From NCBI GenBank assembly GCA_900471925.1, contig UCGV01000005.1:1-64000 (forward strand): a stretch of DNA of 64,000 nucleotides, read 5' to 3'. The notes beneath the pieces were generated by a model that searched no databases, was not told the origin of the DNA, and was given only the letters and a program-made list of their open reading frames with translations. The DNA is from Hyphomicrobiales bacterium. Lineage in GTDB: Bacteria > Pseudomonadota > Alphaproteobacteria > Rhizobiales > Rhizobiaceae. Both the position numbers and the translations under genes were made by a program. Every line of letters begins with the position of its first letter. The stretch's first letter is position 1. Shown here one piece after another: positions 45,470 through 52,772 of this stretch.

Positions 45470-46207
45470 CTAACCCGGCGCGACGTCATGCCCGCCGATG
45501 GGTCTTTGACCTAAGCGAGCGACCACTTCCGTGCGGTTCTGCGCCTGAAGTTTGCGCATTATATGCTGCAAATGCATCTTTACCGTGTGACCCGAAAGAT
45601 TGAGTTTTCCTGCAATCACCTTATTCGAGCAGCCGCTTTGCAATGCCGCGAGGACATCCGCTTCTCTGGGGGTGAAATCGGCAAGCGCCAGGTACTGACT
45701 CCTGTCATGCACGCTTTTTTCGGCACCACTTCTCGTCGGAATATGATCATCCGAACCGTTCGTAGCAGTGCCCAGGAGTTGCGGGAAAAATGTCCCCCCT
45801 GCCAGGACGAGACGAAGACCGGCAAGGGCAAGGTCGATGGGAAGTGACGTCGAGAAAAAGCCGCGGATGCCCATCATGAGAGCCTGACGCGCGATAATGA
45901 CGTCATCCGTACTTGAGAGCAACGTGATAGGAGCCTCGGGAAAACGTGCAGAAATTGCAGCAAGATCGTCCTGCAGGCTGATGCTCTCGACACCTCTTCC
46001 GGCCAGATCCAGCGCAATCAGGCGCACCTCGGCCCCCAAAGCTCGATCAAGGCTCTCGGTCGAGACCAAATCGATAAAGTTCCACCCGACGAGTTCGCGC
46101 TCGAGAAGCTTCACCACGGTGGTGCGCGCCAGTGTAGAATGCTCAATCACGATCACAGTTGGGGCGTTGCGCCCCGTACGACGCTTAGTTCCAGCACTGT
46201 CGGACAC
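45470..46207 (-). CDS. LuxR/FixJ-type regulator with an atypical receiver domain
   Basis: The 245-residue protein has a receiver-like domain (residues about 16-145) and a LuxR helix-turn-helix (about 176-232) with FTPREADVLAALQSGCSNKV and IAGKLNLSGHTVKMHLQHIM. In the receiver the acceptor Asp67 (LIALDLAG) is kept, but the N-terminal acidic pair is a single Glu22 and the conserved Lys is replaced (GIRGFFSTSLP, Thr/Ser instead of K). It may therefore work without phosphorylation. It lies about 0.75 kb from the glycine-rich protein gene and could regulate it; that is inference. Confidence 0.85.
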   Translation of the reverse strand: MSDSAGTKRRTGRNAPTVIVIEHSTLARTTVVKLLERELVGWNFIDLVSTESLDRALGAEVRLIALDLAGRGVESISLQDDLAAISARFPEAPITLLSSTDDVIIARQALMMGIRGFFSTSLPIDLALAGLRLVLAGGTFFPQLLGTATNGSDDHIPTRSGAEKSVHDRSQYLALADFTPREADVLAALQSGCSNKVIAGKLNLSGHTVKMHLQHIMRKLQAQNRTEVVARLGQRPIGGHDVAPG

Positions 46208-46961: not shown

Positions 46962-48050
46962 CTAGCTGTGCATGAAGCTCAGAATGTCGTCCACGAGGGC
47001 CGAATGGGCGTCGGTAAGGTTGCTCTCCCCGCCGTGGCCGGCGATGCCCGCCAGTTGCATCGCGTGCTGATCATAGAGAACATGATCGATCTGTTGAGCA
47101 TCCGCCGTGCCGCCGGCGGGAACGGCAATGTTGATCGGGTGGTAATAAGCGAAGTTGAGGTCGACCATATTGCCGGCCGACGATCCGGTCCCGCCGCCGC
47201 CACCGGCCTGGTTACCTGTAAAAATCGTGTCCGACGACAGGTTGAAGCCACCGCCATCGCCGCCGATGCCTGCCATCTGCACGGTGCCCTGATCGAAAAT
47301 GACATTGTTCGTCTGATGGGCCTCTGCCGAGCCGCCAGCGGCGCCTATGGCGATGTTGATCGGCGAAAAGATGGCGATACTCACGTCAACCATGCTGCCG
47401 ACGAAATATCCATCGCCGCCGTGACCCGCGTAATTGTCGCCGGTGAATGTAAGCGATGTTCCCGGACTCATCGTCGGGCCATGGTTTGCGATGTTGTGGT
47501 CTCCGCCCGAGCCGCCAACACCGCCGATCTGGGTCGCCCCTTGCAGGAACGCCGCGTTGTTCGATTGATCGGCATGAGCCACCGCGCCGGGACCTACAGC
47601 CACGGCGGTATTGACGGGGGCAAATAGTGCGGTTTCGGTGCTGACGAGCCCACCATAGAAGAGGCCGCTGCCACCGCTGCCGGCATGGTTGGCGCCATCG
47701 CCGCCGCCGATGACAGCATTGCCGCTGCCGCCATTGCCGCCTATCCCCGCCATTTCCGTGGGATGCTGGTTGATGAGCGCTGTATTGCCCTGAATGGCGT
47801 CGGCACTCGAATGGGGGCCGGCAATTGCGGCATTGGACGGTGTGAAGACCGCCAAAGCGTTGCTGCTGATCACGCCCTGGCTTATCCCATCACCGCCACT
47901 ACCGGCCGAATTCGAGCCTGCACCGCCAGCGACATCCAATGGAAGCCAGGTTGGTACCAGAGCGAGGTGCCCCGCAGCCACGTTGGAGGTGAGGTATTGA
48001 TCGGTGCCCGTCTTGGGCATGTCTTCCTGTAAGGGACGAGTGTCCGTCAT
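46962..48050 (-). CDS. Large glycine-rich four-repeat protein, candidate type I secretion substrate
   Basis: The 362-residue protein has no signal peptide and almost no Cys. After a 63-residue head come four repeats starting near residues 64, 138, 223 and 298. Each runs x-A-x-F-x-P-x-N-x-A-(I/V)-A, then Ala/Gln/Asn-rich sequence, then a glycine block such as MAGIGGNGGSGN, AGSGGSGLFYGG or AGHGGDGYFVG. There are no RTX GGxGxDxxx calcium repeats. The C-terminus LVDDILSFMHS is short, acidic then hydrophobic, as in type I signals. GGAGACGGTA fixes the start; the frame is open 26 codons further up. The nearby ABC/HlyD pair on the other side suggests it is exported. Confidence 0.75.
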   Translation of the reverse strand: MTDTRPLQEDMPKTGTDQYLTSNVAAGHLALVPTWLPLDVAGGAGSNSAGSGGDGISQGVISSNALAVFTPSNAAIAGPHSSADAIQGNTALINQHPTEMAGIGGNGGSGNAVIGGGDGANHAGSGGSGLFYGGLVSTETALFAPVNTAVAVGPGAVAHADQSNNAAFLQGATQIGGVGGSGGDHNIANHGPTMSPGTSLTFTGDNYAGHGGDGYFVGSMVDVSIAIFSPINIAIGAAGGSAEAHQTNNVIFDQGTVQMAGIGGDGGGFNLSSDTIFTGNQAGGGGGTGSSAGNMVDLNFAYYHPINIAVPAGGTADAQQIDHVLYDQHAMQLAGIAGHGGESNLTDAHSALVDDILSFMHS

Positions 48051-48640
48051 TACCGTCTCCATTGCGCGATCAGCTGCGCGTCCACCGGGCACGCGTCGGC
48101 CGCTCGGGACTGTTCGATTATTGTGCATCCGAATGCAGGGAAAACAGAGCCTGTAATTCGTCTACATCTCGTCGACTAGTGCTATAGCCATTTGGCCGTC
48201 ATCGCCGCGCTGCTCGTGGAGCGAATTTAATCACCCGAAATCCGCCTCTGGATGATCGGCGCCGCATCTTTCTTGCGGCGGAGCAGTAACGTTTGTTGGC
48301 TCCAAACAGGCTCCTTCTTCGCCAATGTCGACCCAGAGAAAGCCACCAAATATCGCCGAGTTTCCGGGCGGTGCCTCACCTCGATAGACGGCATAACTTC
48401 GTCGAGATCGAATTCCTGATTACGCCACATCGTCTGGCGTTAAATCATAATGCTCCACGTGAAAGTAACGATTCGCCGCGCGCTATATATACCCAAAGGA
48501 ACGTCACCGAATATCTAGATAGCTCGCATTCTAAAACACGAGCAATATTCACCTGCTGTCGTATTGGCTGGTGGCGACAAGCTGGATAACCACGTCGCAG
48601 TAAATAACTTAGGCGAAACGAAGTAGAAGGAGTGACGTCA
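48051..48640. promoter_or_regulatory. Divergent intergenic region between the two glycine-rich genes
   Basis: About 0.59 kb with both promoters and no supported gene. The half nearest the small glycine-rich gene is AT-rich (CGCTATATATACCCAAAGG around 48480). A 67-codon minus frame at 48227-48430 is not convincing. Shared control of the two genes is likely from the arrangement. Confidence 0.4.
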
Positions 48641-49213
48641 ATGCCTATTCCACAGATATCGGACACGATTCATCTCAGCAACCCGGATGCGGGTGACGCA
48701 AATGCCGGCAACGGCGGTGATGGCTTCAATTATGGGAATATTGATTATAACCCGGTTGCGTATGTCAACCATTCGCAAACGGTCGATGGAGCAACTACCG
48801 ATCTGCACAACGGCGATCACGTCTGGCAGACGGCAGATTGGGACGCAGGCGGTGGTGGACCCGGGGGCTTCAGCCAGGCACAGAACGGTTTCCTGGCATC
48901 GCTCACCAGCGGCGCCGGCGGCGCGGGGGGAGAGGCTCACTCCAACGGCGATCAAGGAAACACGAGCGGTGGTGATACGGCTACGGTGAATGCGGCTACG
49001 TCCGCAACACAGTATACGCAGCTCATGGCCGATCAGCATGCCACCATCCTTGCCGGCGTCGGCGGCAACGGCGGCAATGGGAACATGGCTCAGGGCGGCG
49101 ATATATCATCCGCACTGGTTCACACGGATCCCGAAACGACGACTGTGAACAACTCTCTCGATCACTTCCTCAATGCCTTCGGGCATATCGATCTCAGCCA
49201 TCTCGGCTCGTGA
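48641..49213 (+). CDS. Small glycine-rich protein related to the four-repeat protein
   Basis: The 190-residue protein shares motifs with the divergent larger protein. NAGNGGDGFNYGNID near residues 21-35 parallels its AG-x-GGDG-x-x-x-G blocks, and QHATILAGVGGNGGNGN (residues 132-148) parallels its Q-x-x-x-x-AGIGG-x-GG-x-x-N units. A glycine block GAGGAGGEAH lies in the middle. There is no signal peptide; the C-terminus NSLDHFLNAFGHIDLSHLGS is amphipathic like a type I signal. AAGGAG eight bases before the ATG fixes the start. It is directly upstream of the transport genes and probably the main substrate. Confidence 0.72.
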   Translation: MPIPQISDTIHLSNPDAGDANAGNGGDGFNYGNIDYNPVAYVNHSQTVDGATTDLHNGDHVWQTADWDAGGGGPGGFSQAQNGFLASLTSGAGGAGGEAHSNGDQGNTSGGDTATVNAATSATQYTQLMADQHATILAGVGGNGGNGNMAQGGDISSALVHTDPETTTVNNSLDHFLNAFGHIDLSHLGS

Positions 49214-49316
49214 ATTCAATCCTTGAGGGTCGCCGGTTTAGGCTGGCGACCCCTCGAGCATTGGAGAACCGAAAGCAGCCCCTTCTTGTCAGTATCAAGT
49301 GCAGTGAGATCTGATA

Positions 49317-51032
49317 ATGGCAACGATTTCCATAAAGCCATCGCGCACGCAGACACAGCTCGTCCTGGCACTACGGGCCTGTGTCGGAGCCTTCGGGCTG
49401 GTCTTCATCTATAGCTGTGGCTACAATCTCTTTCTTCTGGCACCCTCCATCTATCTCCTGCAGATCTATGACAGGGTCTTGTCGAGCCGAAGTGCCGACA
49501 CGCTGCTGATGCTGACGATCATCATCGCGATCGCCGTGTTGGTCGGTTCCATGTTGGATATCGTGCGCAGGGCCGCTCTTTCACGCATCGGCAGCTGGCT
49601 TGACCACAGGCTACGGCCCATGGTGCTCACCGCTTCATTCGAATATGCCGCGCGCGCCGATGCGGGTGCCGCGACCGAATGCTACAGGGACCTCGCCGCG
49701 CTCCGCCAGTTCCTCGATTCACCAGCCAGCTCGCTTTTTTTCGACGTGCCCTGGGCGCCACTCTTCCTGCTCCTGCTTTTCCTTGTTCATCCGCTGCTTG
49801 GGACCATCGGTCTTTTGAGCGCGCTTGCCCTTTTGCTGTTTGCATTCCTGACGGAAGTTGCGACGCGAGAGCCCCTCGCCCGCGCCAATCTCGGCCTTTC
49901 GCGAAGCTATCTGCGATTTGCGACCGCCCTCAAGAACATCGAGGTAATCCGCGCCATGGGCATGCAGGATGGCGCGGCGCAAATCGTCTATCGCGATGCG
50001 GAAATGGCAAGAAAGGCGCAGGACGTCGCGATGCATCGCACGGAGATCATTCTTGGTTTCTCCAAATCGATCCGCACGCTCGCGCAGATCCTCATGATGG
50101 GATCTGCGACGTGGCTGGTGCTTGCTGATAACGGCAGTCCCGGAATCATTTTCGTCGCGAGCCTGTTGCTCGGACGCGGGCTGGCACCGATCGAGGGCGC
50201 AATAGGCGCATGGCGCTCTTTTGCCTTTGCGCGCAACGCCTTCAATCGCCTGAACAGAATGCTCATCGCAGTCGCAGCGGATGGCGATGCCCGGATGGTG
50301 CCGCTACCGGAACCCAATGGCCTCATTCTCGAGAATGTCAGCTATACCCAGCCATTCGCCAATCGCCGGATATTGACTGATGTCACGCTGCGCCTCGCAC
50401 CAGGCGACTGCGTTGCACTCATCGGTCCCTCGGGATCGGGGAAGTCGACCCTTGGCCGCGTCATCGCGGGCGTTGCGCAGGCAACAAGCGGATGCGCCCT
50501 TCTTGGCGGGGTTGATATTTCGGCTCTGCGTCTTTGCGGAGGAACGCGACACATCGGATACCTGCCGCAGGACATCGAACTGTTCGGTGGCGCGATCAAG
50601 GACGTGATCGGACGGTTGGACGGAGGAGATCCGGGCAAGGCGATCGACGCTGCAAAGCTGGTCGGATTGCATGAAGCGATCATGCGGCTGCCGCAAGGTT
50701 ACGAGACCGATATCGGAGAGGGCGGAAACCTGCTCCTCCGCGCTCAGCGCCAGCAACTGGGACTGGCACGAGCAGCCTATGGCAATCCGTCTCTTGTCGT
50801 TCTCGACGACCCGAATTCGAGCCTGGATTATGACGGCGAACGCATGTTGTTCACCGCGATCGAGCGGATGAAATCCAGGCGGATGACTGTCGTCATCATC
50901 ACTCACCGGATGGGGATCCTGCCGGTCACCAACAAGATCGCCATCATACGCAACGGCACGGTGGCAGCGTTCGGTGACAGTGAGAGAATATATGAAACCT
51001 ATCTTCAACCGCCGTCACGAACAGGAACATAG
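49317..51032 (+). CDS. Type I secretion ABC transporter (PrtD type) with degenerate ATPase motifs
   Basis: The 571-residue half-transporter has six membrane helices (residues about 20-300) and an ATPase domain. YNLFLLAPSIYLLQIYDRVL and QFLDSPASSLFFDVPWAPLF are typical of PrtD/AprD-type exporters without a C39 peptidase. Walker A GPSGSGKST (370-378), Q418 and H530 are intact. The signature, normally LSGGQ, is LLRAQ (473-477) in GEGGNLLLRAQRQQ, and the catalytic Glu after Walker B is Asp498 (LVVLDDPNSSLD). Since it should homodimerise, both sites carry these changes. It lies 103 bases after the small glycine-rich gene. The start has only a weak ribosome site. Confidence 0.88.
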   Translation: MATISIKPSRTQTQLVLALRACVGAFGLVFIYSCGYNLFLLAPSIYLLQIYDRVLSSRSADTLLMLTIIIAIAVLVGSMLDIVRRAALSRIGSWLDHRLRPMVLTASFEYAARADAGAATECYRDLAALRQFLDSPASSLFFDVPWAPLFLLLLFLVHPLLGTIGLLSALALLLFAFLTEVATREPLARANLGLSRSYLRFATALKNIEVIRAMGMQDGAAQIVYRDAEMARKAQDVAMHRTEIILGFSKSIRTLAQILMMGSATWLVLADNGSPGIIFVASLLLGRGLAPIEGAIGAWRSFAFARNAFNRLNRMLIAVAADGDARMVPLPEPNGLILENVSYTQPFANRRILTDVTLRLAPGDCVALIGPSGSGKSTLGRVIAGVAQATSGCALLGGVDISALRLCGGTRHIGYLPQDIELFGGAIKDVIGRLDGGDPGKAIDAAKLVGLHEAIMRLPQGYETDIGEGGNLLLRAQRQQLGLARAAYGNPSLVVLDDPNSSLDYDGERMLFTAIERMKSRRMTVVIITHRMGILPVTNKIAIIRNGTVAAFGDSERIYETYLQPPSRTGT

Positions 51033-51046
51033 GGAGGAATGTCGCC

Positions 51047-52492
51047 ATGACCCTTGTTCAACTGGACGCAACGCTGACGCGGTTTTCCCATTCGCTGGGA
51101 ACGATACGGCGGCTTGCTCTTCAACCGGTAGCGATTGCCAGAAGACAGGCGGTCTATCCATCTGTGATAACGCCCGATCAACGCGGCCTCGCCCCCTCTT
51201 CGCCCATGCCGAGGCTGAGAGGCGTTGTCTGGATAGGGAACCTGTTGATCCTGGTCTTCATCGTCGGATTGGGCACCTGGTCGGTTCTGGCACCGCTGCA
51301 AAGTGCTGCGATCGCATCAGGCATTATCGAACCGGAGACCAGCCGAAAGACGATTCAGCATCTGGAAGGTGGAATTGTGCGACGCATCCTCGTGAAGAAC
51401 GGCGACGCAGTCATGGCAGGGCAAATTCTGGTCGAACTCGACGATACGAAGTCTCGTTCGGAGCGCGACAGCATTCAGGGCCAGCTTTGGGATGCTGAAG
51501 CGGGTCGCGCCCGCCTGCTTGCAGAGCAGACGAGTGACGACCATGTCGTCTATCCGCAGGACCTCACGGCAGCAATGGCCAGATATCCTGCGGTCAATGC
51601 GATCCTGACCGGGCAGCAGAAAATCTTCGAGGCCCGCCGCCAGGTCAGGCAGGCGGAAATTGGGATCACCAACGAAAAGATCGCACAGGTACGGCAGGAA
51701 ATCGTTGGACTTGGCGCGCAGAAAGCGTCGCTGGCCGATAGAGCCTCAATCTCGAAGGAAGAGCTGGATCAGGTTACGGCCCTCAACGCCAAAGGGCTGG
51801 AAAGGAAGAGCAGGCTTCTCAACCTGCAGCGGGAGAGAGCAGACCTTGATGGCCAGCAGGGCGAAATAGACGCACAGATTTCACGTGCCTACCAGGTGAT
51901 CAGCGAGTCGCAGGCCGATCTCGCGAAACTTGAAAGCGACCGGTTGAGCGAAGTTGCCCAGGGCATGCGCGACACGGAGACCAAGATCATGCAGTTGCGC
52001 GAGCGCCTGCGGGCGATCGACGACCAGGTTGCCAGAACCGATATTCGTGCTCCCGAAGATGGAACGATCATGAACCTGCGCATCCACACGGTGGGTGGCG
52101 TGATCGGCGCGGGGGAACCGCTCGTCGACCTTCTGCCGCGCGCCGATCGCCTCGTCGTATCCGCCCATGTCAGACCGGAAGACATCAATCTTGTGCGCTC
52201 AGGTCTTGAGGCGCAGGTTCACCTTCTTCCATACAATCAGCGGCGTGTTCCACTCCTGAAAGGTCGGGTCGAGTATGTGTCGGCGGACCGCCTCACCGAC
52301 CCGCAGAGCGGCCAGCCCTATTATGCCGCGACAATCCGTGTAACGGACGAGCGGTTGGCAAAAATGAGGGATGTCGAGCTGGTCGCGGGCATGCCCGCCC
52401 AAACACTGATCGAAACGGGCAAAAGCAGCGTGGCGTTCTATGCTATCCGACCACTCCTCGACAGTTTCAACAGAGCATTTCGCGAGGATTGA
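51047..52492 (+). CDS. Type I secretion membrane fusion protein (HlyD/PrtE type)
   Basis: The 481-residue protein has a cytoplasmic tail of about 60 residues, one membrane helix (VVWIGNLLILVFIVGLGTWS) and then VLAPLQSAAIASGIIEPETS. HLEGGIVRRILVKNGDAVMA is the lipoyl half-motif of the family. A long coiled coil follows, then IRAPEDGTIMNLRIHTVGGV and a C-terminal beta region. It bridges the ABC protein and an outer-membrane TolC. GGAGGAATGTCGCC precedes the ATG, 14 bases after the ABC gene. No TolC gene is present. Confidence 0.92.
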   Translation: MTLVQLDATLTRFSHSLGTIRRLALQPVAIARRQAVYPSVITPDQRGLAPSSPMPRLRGVVWIGNLLILVFIVGLGTWSVLAPLQSAAIASGIIEPETSRKTIQHLEGGIVRRILVKNGDAVMAGQILVELDDTKSRSERDSIQGQLWDAEAGRARLLAEQTSDDHVVYPQDLTAAMARYPAVNAILTGQQKIFEARRQVRQAEIGITNEKIAQVRQEIVGLGAQKASLADRASISKEELDQVTALNAKGLERKSRLLNLQRERADLDGQQGEIDAQISRAYQVISESQADLAKLESDRLSEVAQGMRDTETKIMQLRERLRAIDDQVARTDIRAPEDGTIMNLRIHTVGGVIGAGEPLVDLLPRADRLVVSAHVRPEDINLVRSGLEAQVHLLPYNQRRVPLLKGRVEYVSADRLTDPQSGQPYYAATIRVTDERLAKMRDVELVAGMPAQTLIETGKSSVAFYAIRPLLDSFNRAFRED

Positions 52493-52499
52493 AGCTGTG

Positions 52500-52772
52500 A
52501 TGGGCAAGAGAAAATTCGACGACGACCAGATTACGGGCATTCTGAAGGAGCACCAGGCCGGGGTAACGGTGGCAGATGTTTGTCACAGATACGGCATCAG
52601 TGAGCCAACCTTCTATCGGTGGCAGTCCCTGCAGTTCGGAAATGTCGGTCTCTACACCAGAAGAGTGCGAGCGCTGGAGGAAGAAAACCAGAAGCTCAAG
52701 AAGCTTCTGGCCGAGGCCATGCTTTCGGCGGCAACGCTGAGCGAGATGCTGGCGAAGACACCGAAAGGGTGA
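52500..52772 (+). mobile_element. IS3-family orfA without orfB (insertion sequence remnant)
   Basis: The 90-residue product is a transposase OrfA: MGKRKFDDDQITGILKEHQA, VADVCHRYGISEPTFYRWQS (helix-turn-helix) and a Leu-zipper RALEEENQKLKKLLAEAML. In an intact element orfB with the DDE catalytic domain follows by frameshift; here no orfB sequence appears in the next 300 bases. The gene sits seven bases after the HlyD-type gene. Terminal inverted repeats could not be recognised. The element is inactive on its own. Confidence 0.85.

Follow-up and report, generated by a model that had tools for sequence, protein, structure and literature searches.

A PrtD-type exporter of Rhizobium and its relatives with a conserved, altered signature motif and an aspartate at the catalytic position

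In a clade of bacteria spanning three NCBI families, an ABC protein of the type I secretion system (T1SS) carries an altered signature motif and lacks the catalytic Glu of its ATPase domain, and both changes are fixed and maintained. The exporter gene studied here lies in a window of 64,000 nucleotides from a Hyphomicrobiales bacterium of the Rhizobiaceae (GCA_900471925.1, contig UCGV01000005.1, positions 1 to 64,000, forward strand) and, by map order, is the orthologue of tobD of Rhizobium leguminosarum. It is inherited together with an HlyD-type adaptor and two glycine-rich repeat proteins, which from this linkage are the likely cargo. With moderate confidence, we propose that TobD is a maintained, low-turnover, ATP-gated T1SS exporter of these two adjacent proteins, working as a homodimer with both of its ATP sites altered. 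The features of the locus are as follows; the names GlyA and GlyB are labels from this analysis.

45470-46207, minus strand: LuxR-type response regulator, found with the module
46962-48050, minus strand: GlyB, four-repeat glycine-rich protein of about 362 aa, likely cargo by linkage
48632-49213, plus strand: GlyA, glycine-rich repeat protein of 193 aa upstream of tobD, likely cargo by linkage
49227-49252, plus strand: hairpin between glyA and tobD, recognized by its perfect stem and by comparison with shuffles
49317-51032, plus strand: tobD orthologue, PrtD-type T1SS ABC permease/ATPase of 571 aa, assigned by family model, solved relative and R. leguminosarum match
49716-49718, plus strand: Asp134, where the PrtD "FxT" motif of TM3 has Thr (alignment; motif from PMC8277102)
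50733-50747, plus strand: signature LLRAQ, residues 473-477, where the aligned family mostly has LSGGQ or LSAGQ
50808-50810, plus strand: Asp498, aligned with the family's catalytic Glu
51047-52492, plus strand: tobE orthologue, HlyD-type membrane fusion protein of 481 aa (TIGR01843, 371 bits against a cut-off of 209)
52497-52772, plus strand: OrfA-like HTH protein (HTH_Tnp_1) of 91 aa from a conserved Met, assigned by Pfam, synteny and dN/dS

The exporter frame (49317-51032, plus strand) runs through 571 residues without an internal stop, in keeping with the sequence-only reading, which had called it intact. Its product scores 542.3 bits with the NCBIfam PrtD model TIGR01842 (curated cut-off 510.15), and its best solved relative by sequence is AaPrtD, the Aquifex PrtD (PDB 5l22; E 8e-111). 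Of the further PrtD marks, F132 of the TM3 FxT motif, W299 and R300 in TM6 and the gating R311 are kept, and Asp134 stands where FxT has its Thr. Both the LSGGQ-type signature and the catalytic Glu of the PrtD type are absent: translation and family alignment bear out the LLRAQ at residues 473-477 and the Asp498 noted earlier from the letters, with Walker B (LVVLD) closing at Asp497 and Asp498 following where the aligned family has Glu. The Walker A motif GPSGSGKS (370-377), the Q-loop Gln418 and the H-loop His530 are unchanged, as that reading had also held, and so is the D-loop SSLD. Because the curated cut-off is still passed, descent from the PrtD family stands; ordinary catalysis does not follow from it. 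On the sequence side, where the facts are firm, the protein is a genuine variant within a known type of exporter, both conserved and out of the ordinary.

The rarity of these residues can be gauged from PrtD-family controls, drawn from a class-wide sample in which 144 of 289 genomes gave a match at the limit used. Ninety proteins among the matches listed were aligned (the 30 best and 60 picked down the list, some sharing one genome). Of these, 89 carry the catalytic Glu and one has Asp there; Ser fills the second signature place in 89, and Arg occurs at the third in none. The sole Asp belongs to an alphaproteobacterial PrtD-like protein (L311) whose signature reads LSSGL, whose Walker B is followed by LDDL and whose D-loop is abnormal; either a gene in decay or the degenerate half of a pair of subunits may be at hand. 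Column 134 holds T, S, A or G in 88 of the 90 controls. In an initial set of 20 outgroup exporters, every one combines LS[GAS]G[QY] with Glu. PrsD, the canonical paralogue, was matched in 26 of 60 genomes at the limit used, and the 22 readable loci all carry LS[A/T]GQ with LDEP, the other four having been left out because a wrong or cut frame made the motif unreadable. A regular-expression survey of ABC proteins in the window's own genome gave 22 matches, with 19 Glu, one Asp (the tobD orthologue) and two Ala; the Ala cases were taken for misparses and the signatures of L002 and L006 were misread, and the aligned 90-protein control was used instead.

Similar comparisons among close relatives show that the two changes belong to the lineage. 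A scan of one genome per species over 84,980 species, whose patterns reach close relatives only, gave 79 loci among the matches listed (best 80): 74 have LLRAQ or LLRSQ with Asp, four remote ones at 38-46% identity have canonical motifs, and one is broken. In Rhizobium the orthologue occurs in 76 of 148 genomes, of which 30 were fetched first (the window's own and 29 others, partly overlapping the species scan) and a few more later. Removal of identical genes left 87 distinct LLR[A/S]Q coding sequences, the window's own counted in, from Rhizobium, Ensifer/Sinorhizobium, Phyllobacterium and environmental Brucella. Asp498 is present in all 87 and Glu in none, although a Glu codon is just one base away from the Asp codons in use (GAT in 78, GAC in 9); Arg475 is encoded by all six Arg codons, and Asp134 is likewise found in 87 of 87. 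By the thresholds set, 10 of the 571 columns switched specifically in this Asp clade, and four of them (474, 476, 480 and 498) lie in or beside the signature or at the catalytic place.

The gene is also under purifying selection. Of 300 sampled pairs, 150 gave usable values for the whole gene, with a median pairwise dN/dS of about 0.11; for the ATPase domain 174 of 300 were usable and the median is 0.09. No stop falls within the match in 76 Rhizobium and 66 Bradyrhizobium genomes. The exporter's dN/dS of 0.114 is, however, approximately 2.5 times that of PrsD in Rhizobium (0.045), so its constraint is weaker, which tells against a strong claim. The sequence-only reading had looked to a homologue alignment and to dN/dS to settle whether the gene is sound, with standard LSGGQ/LDEP in all relatives as the mark of a pseudogene or sequencing error. 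That pattern was sought and not found, canonical motifs appearing, among the matches listed, only in relatives at no more than 46% identity. Since both changes are common to relatives and dN/dS is low, decay and sequencing error were rejected as their origin. The one broken locus, on a Brucella cytisi contig (L125), matches the module genes in pieces only, as though sequencing had introduced indels or the locus were decaying throughout; its match was too short and it was excluded from the motif counts.

An IS insertion next to the exporter, to which decay had been tentatively ascribed, proves to be a lone OrfA-like HTH gene. It occupies the same place in 47 of the 55 Asp-clade loci of at least 8.6 kb, is single-copy (the next match in the genome is at 39%), and has a median dN/dS of about 0.17 (200 of 400 sampled pairs), indicating purifying selection; no OrfB was recognized by eye among the downstream ORFs of at least 80 aa. 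On synteny, single copy and purifying selection the insertion was rejected, and the proposed decay in its wake is not supported. On these sequence comparisons, the gene looks like a domesticated OrfA-type gene rather than part of a fresh IS.

A sister clade in Bradyrhizobium (66 of 195 genomes, 49-56% identical) suggests the order in which the changes arose. In the 47 distinct genes read from it the signature takes the forms FSRGY, FSRGF, LSRGY, LSRGF and LPRGF, so that Arg is third in every case, and all 47 retain the catalytic Glu; column 134 is Glu in 39, Gln in six and Asp in two. In a tree of 90 rows (39 of the 87 LLRxQ/Asp genes, 31 of the 47 from Bradyrhizobium and all 20 outgroup exporters) built with the motif columns left out, the LLRxQ/Asp, xxRGx/Glu and canonical rows are each set apart from the rest by a single branch (SH-aLRT 99, 100 and 100). 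The rooting is not strong, because the tree is midpoint-rooted, comes from a quick search and has long outgroup branches. As a clade with the signature Arg and Glu exists, parsimony on this tree indicates that the Gly-to-Arg change probably predates Glu-to-Asp. The simplest history would start with Arg; Leu for Ser, Ala for Gly, Gln for Arg480 and Asp for Glu would then have arisen in the common ancestor of the Rhizobiaceae, Phyllobacteriaceae and Brucellaceae set.

Among 73 module loci of at least 8.6 kb (55 from the Asp clade and 18 from Bradyrhizobium), all 73 combine the exporter with HlyD, GlyA and GlyB, and in all 73 the HlyD gene starts within 400 bases of the exporter on the same strand. 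Neither GlyA nor GlyB was found in 13 canonical-exporter loci of at least 8.6 kb. Genome-wide, GlyB occurs in the same 76 of 148 Rhizobium genomes as the exporter (sets compared by eye), and in Bradyrhizobium the exporter is found in 66 and GlyB in 67 of 195. In the single extra genome the GlyB frame is lost part way, and its PrtD relatives are of the canonical type only, at 36-38%. A class-wide search of 385 evenly drawn genomes found GlyB in one, the window's own. The start of GlyB was set at a conserved Met (the ORF tool had used 48128); where relatives' extractions contained a stop, it lay upstream of the first conserved block in 21 of 23 and at position 17 in the other two. Between subclades (L050-L085 versus L086-L088, L090-L099 and L101-L105), GlyB flips direction and the response regulator swaps side relative to the exporter, and the glyA-tobD-tobE core is constant across them.

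Between glyA and tobD, a perfect stem of length at least 7 is present in 107 of 132 intergenic stretches, compared with 4 to 16 in five mononucleotide shuffles, and the window's own stretch has a z of -3.85. The stems are kept between Rhizobium and Bradyrhizobium although their sequences are unlike. Such a hairpin would suit a putative role in which cargo is expressed above the exporter. No promoter or terminator signal exceeded shuffles in a scan, and no Rfam family reached its gathering score between 44000 and 54000.

GlyB is built of a unit repeated four times, in which certain Gly, Gln and Asn positions never vary. Neither it nor GlyA passed the cut-off of any Pfam or NCBIfam family in the window's own proteins. 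DUF4774 matched 26 of 45 GlyB members (best E 2.3e-5), a similarity put down to glycine-rich make-up; against the window's own GlyB it gave E 0.021 and 15 bits, under the cut-off of 25. A further search returned scattered weak matches (best E 0.0019), and the best match of a GlyB profile to PDB sequences, a ribosomal protein at E 0.0088, was taken as chance. The GlyA of one locus (L130) is annotated as a "PE-PGRS family protein", and a competitiveness association table lists a PE-PGRS-labelled chromosomal gene (PMC8457355). The predicted structure of GlyA is unusable (mean pLDDT 43), and that of GlyB is of medium confidence (pLDDT 71, pTM 0.66). Foldseek found no PDB match to the GlyB model at E 0.001 or better, the best being the FapC amyloid at 0.086; a virus protein at E 8.7e-4 with a TM of 0.06 was discounted. 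In VIA-align comparisons with 83 top chains, the best was a springtail antifreeze polyproline-II bundle (7jjv; Z 11.9, rmsd 2.9, 113 aligned) and a second such bundle reached Z 7.5, beside Z 7.9 for the best unrelated row and with the program's warning that repeats can reach such scores. Resemblance of the predicted GlyB fold to polyproline-II bundles is a lead, and a Curli- or Fap-like amyloid is only a lead as well.

The counterpart in R. leguminosarum bv. viciae 3841 is 92% identical (NC_008380, 670,880-672,592). Three PrtD-type genes occur in 3841, at 91.5, 670.9 and 3,854 kb, and a 2008 study lists RL0072 (toaD), RL0623 (tobD) and RL3658 (prsD) (Krehenbrink and Downie, PMC2275737). The identification with RL0623 follows from being the middle of three on the map rather than from annotation; the 52% identical Bradyrhizobium protein of that study and the synteny also fit TobD/TobE (RL0623/RL0622). 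A tobD::Tn5 mutant of 3841 had no phenotype and unchanged supernatant proteins (PMC2275737), and export by TobD is therefore putative. The accessible part of the study names no TobD cargo, terms two systems enigmatic, and of the ATP-site motifs mentions Walker A only, neither the signature nor the Glu. In the literature found for tobD, tobDE or RL0622-0625 this is the study with data; PMC10925705 mentions tobDE once.

How might such an exporter work? With Walker A, the Q-loop, the Walker B Asp and the H-loop all intact, both sites of a TobD homodimer would bind ATP. Arg475 would sit near the Q-loops and stop the sites from locking on ATP, as proposed for the equivalent Arg of human BSEP (ABCB11), and Asp498 would leave hydrolysis slow. 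The outcome would be a low-turnover, ATP-gated exporter, fit for small cargo that folds outside the cell. An unlocking Arg acquired first would make loss of the catalytic Glu tolerable, and the Arg-first history fits because the BSEP Arg is proposed to act in this way. In the accessible text of PMC7544095, the E556M change in ABCB1 locks ATP and arrests transport, and addition of the BSEP residues S474E, G1178R and Q1180E restores it, which is argued to reflect avoided ATP occlusion; simulations have the Arg forming hydrogen bonds to both Q-loops, with weaker binding of ATP. By residue number, G1178 corresponds to Arg475, each being third in its signature. Sites with Asp for Glu apparently retain hydrolysis at a slow rate (PMC7756269). 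Against a slow TobD, the export of one type I substrate is believed to require many rounds of hydrolysis (PMC8277102), and the literature searched held no tested precedent for a homodimeric exporter with two such degenerate sites. Where the sequence-only reading had left a choice between a slow or regulated exporter and a decaying one, the former stands as the better of the two, the changes being fixed and under purifying selection, and the latter is not supported.

Other readings were considered. If Asp498 acts as the base and the signature helix still orients ATP, turnover could be near that of a normal PrtD and the motif would represent drift within a functional envelope, with compensation. 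The strong conservation, the intact Walker A, Q-, D- and H-loops, the kept Gln477 and the charge preserved by Asp (PMC7756269) agree with this; the controls, with Glu and the second signature Ser in 89 of 90 each, speak against it, as does ABCB1, where changing both Walker B Glu residues to Gln, Asp or Ala left the same residual ATPase (PMC7756269), and we regard such near-normal catalysis as unlikely. Conceivably, the gate needs no hydrolysis: the channel would simply open and close as ATP binds and leaves, and the glycine-rich cargo would be drawn through by its folding on the outside. The alteration of both hydrolysis elements on one chain, a TAP D-loop mutant that behaves as a nucleotide-gated facilitator (PMC7756269) and the medium-confidence GlyB repeat model, with its likeness to the 7jjv polyproline-II bundle, would accord with this. 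However, known Asp-site proteins retain slow hydrolysis, and the Foldseek comparison of GlyB with the PDB gave no match at E 0.001; this gate seems to us quite unlikely. The same low standing applies to its fuller form, in which TobD would need no fast hydrolysis at either site, the early signature Arg would have made Glu loss tolerable, and cargo folding outside would give direction.

TobD might instead pair with a canonical ABC subunit encoded elsewhere, giving a heterodimer with one degenerate site. Heterodimers are the usual home of such sites (PMC7756269), and the genome holds five further PrtD-type ABC genes at 33-37% identity. Nevertheless, the flanks (up to about 6 kb) contain no other ATPase-domain match in 63 of the 73 loci, and in the remaining 10 any such match lies at a distance of at least about 2.5 kb. 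With the signature and Glu changes on one chain, moreover, each of the two sites formed with a canonical partner would be half-altered, a pattern different from that of TAP or TM287/288; such pairing is very unlikely in our estimation. Least credible, to the point of being barely worth entertaining, is a non-functional or decaying transporter. The silent tobD mutant (PMC2275737), a constraint weaker than that of PrsD and the broken locus on the Brucella cytisi contig lean towards it, against changes shared by 87 of 87 distinct relatives at low dN/dS, matches without stops in 76 and 66 genomes, and exact co-retention with GlyB.

How far secretion ABC proteins need hydrolysis, and what purpose degenerate sites serve, are open questions usually studied with one site normal. 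Here a whole clade appears, from its sequences, to have both sites altered in one chain. Together, the Asp clade, the Bradyrhizobium genes as a living intermediate with Arg and Glu, and the canonical paralogues in the same cells form a natural mutational series. For TobDE, enigmatic in 2008, this reading supplies a probable substrate and may explain why the system was silent.

Among known systems, TobD/TobE of 3841 share orthology and synteny with the tobD-tobE pair of the window. With AaPrtD (5l22) and PrsD-type exporters, TobD shares domain order, the TM6 Trp and basic residue, the gating Arg, Walker A and the Q-, D- and H-loops, and it differs in having LLRAQ for LSGGQ, Asp for Glu and Asp134 in FxT. 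The heterodimeric exporters TAP, TM287/288, BmrCD and TmrAB likewise combine Glu-to-Asp with an altered signature. In these exporters each of the two changes sits in its own ATPase domain, leaving one site canonical, whereas in TobD both are on one chain, with no linked partner gene. The degenerate site of human BSEP is similar to that of TobD in having Arg at the third signature residue and in having lost the catalytic Glu (PMC7544095). The second BSEP site is canonical, however, and the degenerate one has Met rather than Asp at the Glu place; TobD lacks two Glu residues of BSEP, one preceding the Q-loop Gln and one closing the signature, and has Pro417 and Gln477 there, and Ser474Leu and Gly476Ala of TobD lie outside the BSEP set. 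Rescue with BSEP residues used three of them jointly rather than Arg on its own (PMC7544095). The two proteins share no subfamily, and the likeness between TobD and BSEP is convergent.
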